Source: Nocardioides mesophilus (lineage in GTDB: Bacteria > Actinomycetota > Actinomycetes > Propionibacteriales > Nocardioidaceae). From it: a stretch of DNA of 64,000 nt. The notes under the pieces were generated by a model. The model worked only from the letters and a program-made list of their open reading frames with translations, had not been told where the DNA came from and did not search any database. Positions within the stretch are counted from its first letter, which is position 1. Every line of letters begins with the position of its first letter. Below, piece after piece: positions 33,627-35,383 of this stretch. The position numbers and the translations under genes are program-made. Where the stretch lies: contig NZ_CP060713.1 in NCBI RefSeq assembly GCF_014395785.1, positions 2,012,501 to 2,076,500 of the forward strand, in the 5' to 3' direction.

Positions 33627-33947
33627 CGGACGAGGATAGGTCACCGCGTCGGCTCCGGTGGTTGTCGATCCTGCACAACTACGCAACGATGGTGAATCGC
33701 TGTTTTAGGCGTTTGCGGGGCCTCCGCCCGCGAGATTCGTCCGATTCCTCCCAAAAACGGGGCCGGGCGCGTGCTGTGCTGATTATGGGGGATCCAGGGC
33801 ACCTGTGTCTGCTTGTCGCAGTTTTTGCAGGAACATGCAGTGCACACTCCTGCGGCTGGAATCACTGGCTTGGGGCTCTTGGGTGACCCACACTTGAGGT
33901 CAGGCGGGAAACCGCCACTCCTGGGACGACGAGCATGAGGTAACCAC
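33627..33947. other. 321-bp intergenic region, divergent promoters and structured leader
   Basis: Between the metallophosphoesterase (-) and the exported-peptide gene (+). It is less GC-rich than its surroundings. Visible elements: GTTGT-N9-ACAAC (about 33660-33678), GCAGG/CCTGC arms (33827-33831/33849-33853), and a GAAA-capped hairpin GGCGG-GAAA-CCGCC (33903-33916) about 30 bases before the peptide start. No good -10/-35 pair could be placed. The length suggests a long, possibly regulated leader for the peptide mRNA, but no known riboswitch was recognised. Confidence 0.5.
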
Positions 33948-34115
33948 ATGAACCAGCACCGCACCGCTGCCAAGATCATCGCCGGCCTCACGCTGACGGT
34001 CGGCCTGTTCGCCGGGGTCGTCGCCCCGGCCCAGGCCAACGACACCGGCTGGAACGGCACCAAGACCCTCAACAACGACACCGGCTGGAACGGCACGAGC
34101 ATCACCAACCGCTGA
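33948..34115 (+). CDS. exported 55-residue peptide with duplicated NDTGWNGT repeat
   Basis: MNQHRTAAK is followed by a hydrophobic core (IIAGLTLTVGLFAGVV) and an APAQA signal-peptidase site. The predicted mature product is 25 residues and contains NDTGWNGT twice, 12 residues apart. At DNA level 34038-34060 and 34074-34096 are identical over 23 bp, so a 36-bp unit was duplicated. GAGGTAACCAC precedes the ATG. The peptide has no Cys and no antimicrobial-type charge; small size, export and repeat suggest a signal peptide or surface factor. It converges on a LuxR-type regulator gene 200 bp away. Function unknown; it is easily missed because of its size. Confidence 0.72.
   Translation: MNQHRTAAKIIAGLTLTVGLFAGVVAPAQANDTGWNGTKTLNNDTGWNGTSITNR
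34038..34096 (+). repeat. 36-bp-period tandem duplication within the peptide gene
   Basis: Two identical 23-bp copies, 34038-34060 and 34074-34096, each encoding NDTGWNG plus the first two bases of the following Thr codon. The identical codons point to a recent duplication or strong selection for the repeat. Confidence 0.85.
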
Positions 34116-34137
34116 GCCTCCAGCTACCCCCACAAAC

Positions 34138-34246
34138 GCGACCGGCCATCCCCCCGGCCCGGCTCGCCACACAGGTCCAGACGAGGACGAAACGAGTCAT
34201 CCCCCCGGCAGTTTCGATCCCAGTGCCATCCCCCCGGCCCGTCTCG
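34138..34246 (+). ncRNA. 6C-RNA-like cluster of hairpins with ATCCCCCC loops
   Basis: CATCCCCCCGGC occurs three times: 34147-34158, 34198-34209 and 34227-34238. Hairpin A pairs 34138-34147 with 34156-34167 (GGCC/GGCC core, GCGA/TCGC base). Hairpin B pairs CGAAAC (34188-34193) with GTTTCG (34211-34216) and GTC with GGC inside. Both expose exactly ATCCCCCC closed by a C-G pair. The third copy has only a GCC/GGC stem. Two stem-loops each showing six or more C is the defining feature of the actinobacterial 6C RNA. It lies 22 bp after the peptide stop and would be made as its 3' untranslated region or from its own promoter, with the hairpin 34256-34291 as terminator. Confidence 0.55.
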
Positions 34247-34255
34247 ACCGCACAC

Positions 34256-34291
34256 GCGAGGGCAGTTCATCGTCAGGGTGACTGCCCTCGC
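34256..34291. terminator. 11-bp hairpin between peptide and regulator genes
   Basis: GCGAGGGCAGT (34256-34266) pairs perfectly with ACTGCCCTCGC (34281-34291) around a 14-base loop. It lacks a U-run on either strand. It probably ends the peptide/C6-hairpin transcript and that of the convergent regulator (stop at 34322). Confidence 0.65.
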
Positions 34292-34321
34292 TGCGTGTCC
34301 TGGGGAGGGTGAACGCGGGGG

Positions 34322-35383
34322 TCAGTCGTCCTCGACGGCCTCGACCAGCTCCAGGTCGTCGACCTCGCCGTCCGGCTCCGGCGCGGGGAGCGGCAGCGCG
34401 GCGCCGTCACGGCCCATGGCGTAGCCGAGCTGGAACCGGGTCTGGACGCCGTACTCGTCCTTCAGCGCCGCGATGTAGCCGGCGTACGTGCGGGTGCTGA
34501 CCCCCAGCCGCTTGGCGCTGGCCGGGTCGCTGTGGCCCTCGGTGAGCAGCCGGATCGTCATCGCCCGGACATCGGCGGCGATGTGCCGCTCCGCCTGGTT
34601 CCCGCTGACGTTGAACGGCTGCGCGCGCTCCCAGGAGCGCTCGAAGATGTCGACCAGGTAGGCGATGAGCGACTTCTCGTAGATCGCGATGGCCACGTGG
34701 TGGTTGTCGGAGGCCGGCACCACCGCGACCTGGCGGTCCACGACGATCAGCCGCCGGAAGAACTCGTCGAGCGTGCGGACCTCCGCCCCGTGGCTGATGA
34801 TGTCGGCGACGTACTCCCGGGTGGCCGGACTGTGCCGGGCGGAGTGCTGGTAGAGGGTGCGCATGCGTACGCCGCGCGCCAGCGCCTTCACGTCGCGGTC
34901 CTCCGCCACCGCGAGCGCGTTCGCGGGGCGGCGGCCGTGCGGCTGGGCGGTGAGCAGCTCGGCACGGCAGTCGTTGACCGCGGCCGCGATGAAGTTGTTG
35001 ATGTTGTCGAGCCCGTGGATCTCGGTGATCGGGTGGACCGTGGCCTGGGGGGAGGTCCGGAACACCTGCCCGAGCTCGCTGAAGGTGTCGGCCCAGCGCG
35101 CGGACTCGGTGAGCAGGTCCGCGCCCTGCTGGCCGAGCGGGACCACGATCTGGGCCTGCACCGCCGAGGGGTCCATCGGGTAGAGCCGGTTGCTGCCCTC
35201 GTCGAGGCGGATCAGGCCGATGTCGAGCAGCAGGTCGAGCGCCGGCTGATTGCGCGCGTCGTGCAGCCGCGGGTCGTCCGCCGGCAGGGAGCCGTGCGCC
35301 ACCGCGTTGGTGTAGATCCGCCTCGCCGTCGTCTCCAGCAGCTGGCGATCGTCGGGGCCGTAGCTACCTCGCTCCACGTACAT
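34322..35383 (-). CDS. LuxR-type helix-turn-helix regulator
   Basis: 353 residues. The C-terminal HTH lies at about 270-320 (ADVRAMTIRLLTEGHSD, then RLGVSTRTYAGYIAALKDEYG), a LuxR_C-like form in which an Arg-Thr-Tyr recognition helix follows GVS. The N-terminal 260 residues form a sensor-like region: a helical start (DRQLLETTARRIYTNAV), a winged-helix-like segment (ALDLLLDIGLIRL), and a PLD/TrmB-like domain (AELLTAQPHGRRP, FFRRLIVVDRQVAVVP). The tail is acidic. It has no phospho-acceptor domain. GGAGAGG precedes the ATG at 35383. Convergence with the exported-peptide gene suggests that it senses or controls the peptide. Confidence 0.82.
   Translation of the reverse strand: MYVERGSYGPDDRQLLETTARRIYTNAVAHGSLPADDPRLHDARNQPALDLLLDIGLIRLDEGSNRLYPMDPSAVQAQIVVPLGQQGADLLTESARWADTFSELGQVFRTSPQATVHPITEIHGLDNINNFIAAAVNDCRAELLTAQPHGRRPANALAVAEDRDVKALARGVRMRTLYQHSARHSPATREYVADIISHGAEVRTLDEFFRRLIVVDRQVAVVPASDNHHVAIAIYEKSLIAYLVDIFERSWERAQPFNVSGNQAERHIAADVRAMTIRLLTEGHSDPASAKRLGVSTRTYAGYIAALKDEYGVQTRFQLGYAMGRDGAALPLPAPEPDGEVDDLELVEAVEDD

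Follow-up and report, generated by a model that had tools for sequence, protein, structure and literature searches.

The gene pair described here is best read as a peptide-pheromone circuit of the PlcR–PapR kind with an unrelated receptor, a reading we consider likely in the absence of binding, expression or peptide data. In the window, the 64,000-nucleotide stretch of the Nocardioides mesophilus genome that was analysed, the gene of a short secreted propeptide and the gene of a regulator are convergent and lie 206 bp apart. The propeptide gene and the adjoining intergenic region contain the following features.

33948..34115, + strand: propeptide gene, 55 aa, with a signal peptide and two NDTGWNGT copies (sequence and orthologues)
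33948..34037, + strand: putative Sec signal peptide, residues 1–30, ending in APAQA before N (heuristic call)
34041..34055, + strand: first pentapeptide copy, DTGWN
34077..34091, + strand: second pentapeptide copy, DTGWN
34257..34290, no strand assigned: inverted repeat CGAGGGCAGT...ACTGCCCTCG with a 10-bp stem between the convergent genes, a probable bidirectional terminator (direct sight)

The product is MNQHRTAAKIIAGLTLTVGLFAGVVAPAQA (putative signal peptide) followed by NDTGWNGTKTLNNDTGWNGTSITNR (mature part); signal peptides throughout this work are heuristic calls and not SignalP predictions. Identical 23-bp copies of AACGACACCGGCTGGAACGGCAC start at 34038 and 34074 and therefore have a period of 36 bp; these copies do not appear in the repeat-finder listing for the window. 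A repeat that contains CATCCCCCCGGC also occurs three times between the convergent genes (34145–34166, 34187–34209 and 34225–34246). On the other side, a TGCACAACTACGCAACGATG element at 33672–33691 lies upstream of the divergent metallophosphoesterase gene and is conserved in five other loci (L001, L002, L004, L005 and L066).

The regulator combines three recognizable regions.

34322..35383, − strand: gene of the 353-aa regulator, a putative transcription factor and peptide receptor (sequence, profile, model)
35177..35356, − strand: TrmB-like winged-helix region, residues 10–69 (profile, model)
34607..35041, − strand: PLD-like sensor domain, residues 115–259, with group-specific residues such as Q147, R152, R163, Q179, H180 and Y242 (model, residue comparison)
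34409..34603, − strand: LuxR/GerE-type HTH, residues 261–325 (profile, model)

In a profile of 21 homologues, the N-terminal region of about 250 residues matches TrmBL2 (columns 16–257, E = 9e-12) and the C-terminus matches the HTHs of DevR, NarL and GerE (columns 263–331, E = 4e-6 to 6e-4). Pfam gives only weak TbsP_N and HTH matches, and the TbsP_N (PF19138) score of 22.2 bits does not reach the curated cut-off of 27.1. The AlphaFold model, calculated from a 60-row alignment, has a mean pLDDT of 83 and a pTM of 0.61. Modelled residues 115–259 resemble NucT (Z 18.2, rmsd 2.0), which identifies a PLD-like domain, and residues 10–258 match TrmBL2 domain by domain. Superposition on 5box gives a Z of 17.2 over 231 residues; the high rmsd of 21 results from domain shifts. 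No receiver domain, as NarL/FixJ response regulators have, was found in Pfam or in the model. Pfam also shows no autoinducer-binding domain before the LuxR HTH, and the region matches TrmBL2 instead, which rules out an AHL-type LuxR. Likewise, an RRNPP protein is ruled out, since Pfam detects no tetratricopeptide repeats (TPR) and the model has a different fold, composed of a winged helix, a long helix, the PLD-like domain and the HTH. Taken together, Pfam, the profile and the model show a regulator in which a TrmB-like winged helix is joined to a PLD-fold sensor and a LuxR-type HTH. Q147, R152, R163, T176, Q179, H180, E207, Y242 and others are conserved in the peptide-linked regulators and not in about 32 peptide-less paralogues. 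Residues conserved only in the peptide-linked group lie mostly inside the PLD-like domain and form a plausible pocket, inferred without binding data. An earlier note on this DNA had described a 55-codon gene with a signal peptide and a tandem duplication of NDTGWNGT (23-bp identity, 36-bp period), and a convergent regulator with an HTH and no phosphorylation domain. Both descriptions hold, the first being confirmed in the sequence with the signal peptide by heuristic, and the second corresponding to ORF 34322–35383(−), in which Pfam finds no receiver domain. The suggestion that the long N-terminal region looks like a sensor is supported by the TrmB/PLD-like fold.

The pairing of the two genes recurs across genomes. 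Among relatives there are 13 close homologues of the regulator counting itself, the others being 50–83% identical. Except for one at a contig end, each has beside it a short secreted frame in convergent orientation that contains D[ST][GAS]W, in most cases more than once; the repeats take the forms SDTGWNGT ×4, DTGWPTG ×2, DTSWPS ×2, DTAWE ×2 and DTGWRT ×3. A scan of named genomes gave 80 independent regulator loci from Nocardioides, Marmoricola, Pimelobacter and Streptomyces (e.g. S. avidinii, S. virginiae and S. stelliscabiei). A signal-peptide frame with D[ST][GSAT]W occurs within 900 bp of the regulator in 69 of the 80 loci, compared with 3 of 149 background windows taken elsewhere within the same loci; the Fisher p of about 1e-42 treats the loci as independent. 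On inspection, the misses are mostly detection failures, as most of the non-matching loci have a peptide that the script lost (e.g. DTAWE, DTSWPT ×2 and DTGWT ×3). The test that the earlier note had proposed, to collect regulator homologues and look for secreted DTGW frames nearby, was therefore run and passed without refutation. The functional link that it had inferred from proximity is supported; signalling itself remains an inference, with no evidence that the peptide binds the regulator.

The gene order is convergent at all scored loci in Nocardioidaceae and divergent at all scored loci in Streptomyces, the sole convergent exception within that genus being L090. The pairing is thus not a frozen gene order. 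The gene pair and its two-order conservation are shown by sequence comparison. In the reverse direction, DNA patterns for a DTGW pair matched 10 of 295 family genomes, with no matches for the reversed-pattern control. Nine of the ten matches adjoin the regulator; the remaining one lies out of frame in low-complexity sequence, so that in-frame DTGW pairs occur beside the regulator only (9/9). The repeat is more than a chance duplication because it recurs in orthologues and the reverse search had no control matches. Low-complexity DTGW-pair matches at L060, L291–L298, L304 and L314 were discarded as out of frame or unsecreted. In the flanks examined, the DxxW frame is absent beside TbsP-like paralogues of the same order and beside other families of about 30% identity.

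Several further arrangements were observed around these loci. At L029:2323–2481, a TbsP-like regulator of family f2 is convergent with a short frame for a secreted product whose repeat is another one (GRGI...DGRGI), possibly a second peptide code. Secreted frames at L307:1495–1668 (DSGWQ ×2) and L302:1495–1728 (DTGWD ×2) have no regulator of this family within 1.5 kb, which weighs against the pheromone reading; they could be orphan propeptides or have other partners. Five Streptomyces loci (L091, L092, L095, L101 and L108) carry two to five tandem paralogous regulators, mostly around one propeptide gene, and these may be orphan receptors or eavesdroppers. Streptomyces plasmids also carry the pair, with the peptide annotated merely as a hypothetical protein. 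On a Streptomyces globosus plasmid, a DTGWGAP ×3 peptide/regulator pair (L290:1771–3250) directly adjoins MbtH and NRPS genes, and control of a natural-product cluster by this pair is possible.

The comparison of adjacent repeats within genes defines the conserved unit. Since D and W are fixed by the search pattern, information comes only from the positions between and after them. The two middle codons of DxxW show 46 synonymous and 0 nonsynonymous differences, and the residue after W shows 16 and 3, respectively, whereas the spacers (positions +5 to +8) show 31 synonymous and 125 nonsynonymous differences. The selected unit is therefore about five residues, D-x-x-W-x. This selection is shown by sequence comparison, and the repeats give the general code D-[ST]-[GSAT]-W-x, with DTGWN in the window. 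Propeptides carry between 1 and about 9 copies, and the unit often has a free C- or N-terminus. Among the single-copy Nocardioides peptides there are many whose unit starts exactly at the signal-peptidase site (DTSWG directly after A), and in other propeptides the unit is the end of the protein. Some Streptomyces propeptides exceed 100 aa. The third residue (G or S) mostly tracks the clades of the regulator tree, with 10 changes over 57 rows, without a shuffled-label control.

Repeated short Trp-containing cores would also suit a RiPP precursor, in which the repeats are core peptides that undergo post-translational modification, and the S. globosus pair beside NRPS/MbtH genes could be cited in its favour. 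However, no maturation enzyme is conserved beside the pair in Nocardioidaceae, where the neighbours are pckG and a metallophosphoesterase gene or a tRNA gene, and export relies on a signal peptide rather than on a dedicated leader and transporter. We consider this explanation very unlikely.

A common element lies upstream of the peptide genes and is present in the window.

33826..33854, no strand assigned: operator-like element TGCAGGAACATGCAGTGCACACTCCTGCG, 93 bp before the ATG, the sole site with at most two mismatches in the 64-kb window

The consensus is the palindrome TGCA-N6-TGCA-N-TGCA-N6-TGCA, found upstream of most Nocardioidaceae peptide genes. A fixed-spacing TGC(A/G)-N6-TGCANTGC pattern occurs 27–148 bp before the start codon in 26 of 27 of these genes. 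In named genomes, the four-box element with at most three mismatches is present in 39 of 51 Nocardioidaceae peptide promoters, and shuffled sequences never attain such a match. In Streptomyces, the divergent intergenic regions share TGCA(A/G)GAACATGATGCA. With at most two mismatches, 42 sites occur in 10 regulator-bearing genomes compared with 1 in 10 regulator-less relatives, both sets having been picked by hand; a control pattern of altered spacing gives 1 site in the regulator-bearing genomes. The common element and its co-occurrence with the regulator are shown by sequence comparison. The assignment of the element to the regulator rests chiefly on this co-occurrence, without binding data. 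A stricter palindrome pattern was dropped as too narrow, since it recovered 6 of 18 positives and 0 of 12 regulator-less genomes. A Nocardioides/Pimelobacter subclade with EADTGWGW-type peptides (L216, L227, L230, L231 and L256) keeps the peptide and lacks the operator upstream, which weighs against the circuit and may represent a loss of feedback.

A short frame can be spurious, or it can hitch-hike with a regulator gene, and one case alone would prove little. Nevertheless, such a chance or structural association is disfavoured by the pairing counts, the reverse search, the promoter element, the site counts and the codon data, and plasmid records independently annotate homologous frames as genes. 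We regard it as all but excluded.

The positions of the element elsewhere point to a probable regulon. In the genome of the window, the best non-self sites precede genes of three peptidases: an M6 immune-inhibitor-A protease, whose site is perfect, a thermolysin-type protease of family M4 and a carboxypeptidase of family M14. A weaker site precedes a GDSL lipase. The M4 target is found again in three genera (L142, L170 and L181), and three genomes (L141, L144 and L159) share the M6 target. An S8 subtilase and an alpha-lytic-type (S1-type) protease share one site (L146), and further targets elsewhere include an S13 carboxypeptidase, an NlpC/P60 protein and a secreted nuclease. By an automatic test, 15 of 26 targets are secreted compared with 38 of 142 other genes (p = 0.0025), a moderate enrichment. 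The positions before secreted hydrolases are shown by sequence comparison; that these hydrolases, largely peptidases, are the probable regulon is inferred from them without expression data. Against this reading, not every site precedes an exoenzyme gene; some are located upstream of ligA or in the space between two convergent genes. In L153–L158, near-perfect sites have no evident secreted gene next to them: two genomes have the site upstream of ligA and four have it between proS and a convergent gene, and small RNAs are possible there. Two matches inside a ribosomal protein gene, which we take to be rplB by sequence context (L176 and L180), were rejected as chance. In Streptomyces, the operator core occurs almost only at the locus itself, and no convincing regulon was found beyond it.

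A probable regulon that is largely peptidases, together with the variable linkers that separate the repeats, also raises the possibility of a protease-activity sensor. In this alternative, the propeptide is mainly a decoy substrate, and the DxxW peptides that the exoproteases of the cell itself release from it report extracellular proteolysis or diffusion rather than cell density. However, many Nocardioides propeptides need signal peptidase alone, because the mature peptide starts at the DTSWG that follows A. We consider the alternative unlikely, and it refines the pheromone model rather than excluding it.

In the pheromone circuit that we prefer, the propeptide would be exported by Sec, and signal peptidase and extracellular proteases would cut it into short peptides based on D-[ST]-[GSAT]-W-x, here DTGWN. 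The peptide would re-enter cells, probably via oligopeptide permeases, for which it is small enough; seven oligopeptide-type binding proteins are encoded in the genome of the window. Import is inferred, as are processing and density dependence. The imported peptide would bind the PLD-like domain, and the loaded regulator would then bind the TGCA palindrome and activate the propeptide gene as well as genes of secreted peptidases and other exoenzymes. The position of the element, upstream of both the peptide promoter and the exoenzyme genes, suggests an activator with positive feedback; binding, and activation as the direction of control, are not shown. The induced proteases may in turn help to mature the propeptide.

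One argument against a peptide ligand comes from the receptor family. TrmB-family regulators with known ligands bind sugars; therefore, the ligand of this regulator could be a non-peptide. The peptide would then be an output: the regulator senses a sugar, lipid or metabolite and switches on exoproteases together with an externally acting DxxW peptide, such as an antimicrobial, a protease inhibitor or a surface peptide. The regulator fold matches this explanation, and the peptide promoter and the exoenzymes carry the same element. However, the pairing is dedicated and one-to-one, in two gene orders and several genera, and tandem identical five-residue units with free spacers, variable copy number and free termini resemble a processed multi-copy pheromone. 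An effector peptide should conserve more than five residues. We therefore consider the output explanation unlikely.

The pheromone circuit has a close parallel in PlcR–PapR of the Bacillus cereus group (PMC2464732, PMC4701985). Both have a secreted and processed short peptide whose gene adjoins the regulator and is apparently under its control, a palindromic box, positive feedback, a regulon mostly of exported proteins and Opp import; processing, feedback and import are inferred here. The PlcR regulon consists mostly of exported proteins, including InhA2 (immune inhibitor A), neutral proteases and a subtilase (PMC2464732, PMC4701985). PlcR, however, is an HTH and TPR protein of the RRNPP type, whereas the receptor here has a TrmB/PLD fold and a LuxR HTH, belongs to another phylum, is associated with another putative operator and is paired with tandem DxxW units. 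As in RRNPP systems (PMC10075063), a small propeptide with repeat duplications and a signal peptide that only a heuristic assigns to the Sec type lies beside a cytoplasmic regulator of 250–500 aa, and the criteria of a 10–100 aa propeptide (55 aa), a 250–500 aa receptor (353 aa) and adjacent genes (206 bp) are met. The fold is unrelated and lacks tetratricopeptide repeats, so the circuit would work like the RRNPP kind without membership, failing the TPR criterion. The archaeal regulators TrmB, TrmBL2 and TbsP likewise combine a winged helix with a long helix and a PLD-like domain (5box, 3qph, 2f5t); they have neither the C-terminal LuxR/GerE HTH nor the associated secreted peptide, and their known ligands are sugars, where a peptide is inferred here. 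LuxR solos and LuxR-AHL receptors share the C-terminal LuxR-type HTH, but the sensor here is PLD-like and not an autoinducer-binding domain. Yeast alpha-factor-type secretory precursors hold several copies of a short signal; the receptor type and organism are different, and this is an analogy only.

In the open-access literature searched, no description of DxxW peptides or of such a system was found; preprints and most subscription journals were outside the scope, and a prior description is not excluded. Absent from the earlier note are the operator element, the secreted proteases as a probable regulon, the divergent arrangement in Streptomyces and the general pentapeptide code D[ST]xW. The receptor class and the peptide code appear new, and the circuit logic is of a known kind.

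Peptide signals are considered typical of Bacillota and small molecules typical of Actinomycetota (PMC10075063), which are usually described as signalling by compounds such as gamma-butyrolactones and not by imported linear peptides (PMC10075063, PMC4748050). A bolder reading, towards which we lean by a small margin, is a large undescribed class of Actinomycetota peptide quorum sensing. PLD-fold, TrmB-derived cytoplasmic regulators would read tandem DxxWx pentapeptides, with exoprotease control in Nocardioides and with several specificities and orphan paralogous regulators in Streptomyces. If this reading is true, intracellular peptide sensing would gain a solution without TPR, and cell–cell communication in Streptomyces and Nocardioides could be tested simply with synthetic peptides. 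Inexpensive chemical inducers of exoenzymes could follow, and perhaps inducers of silent gene clusters too, as one plasmid pair adjoins NRPS genes.
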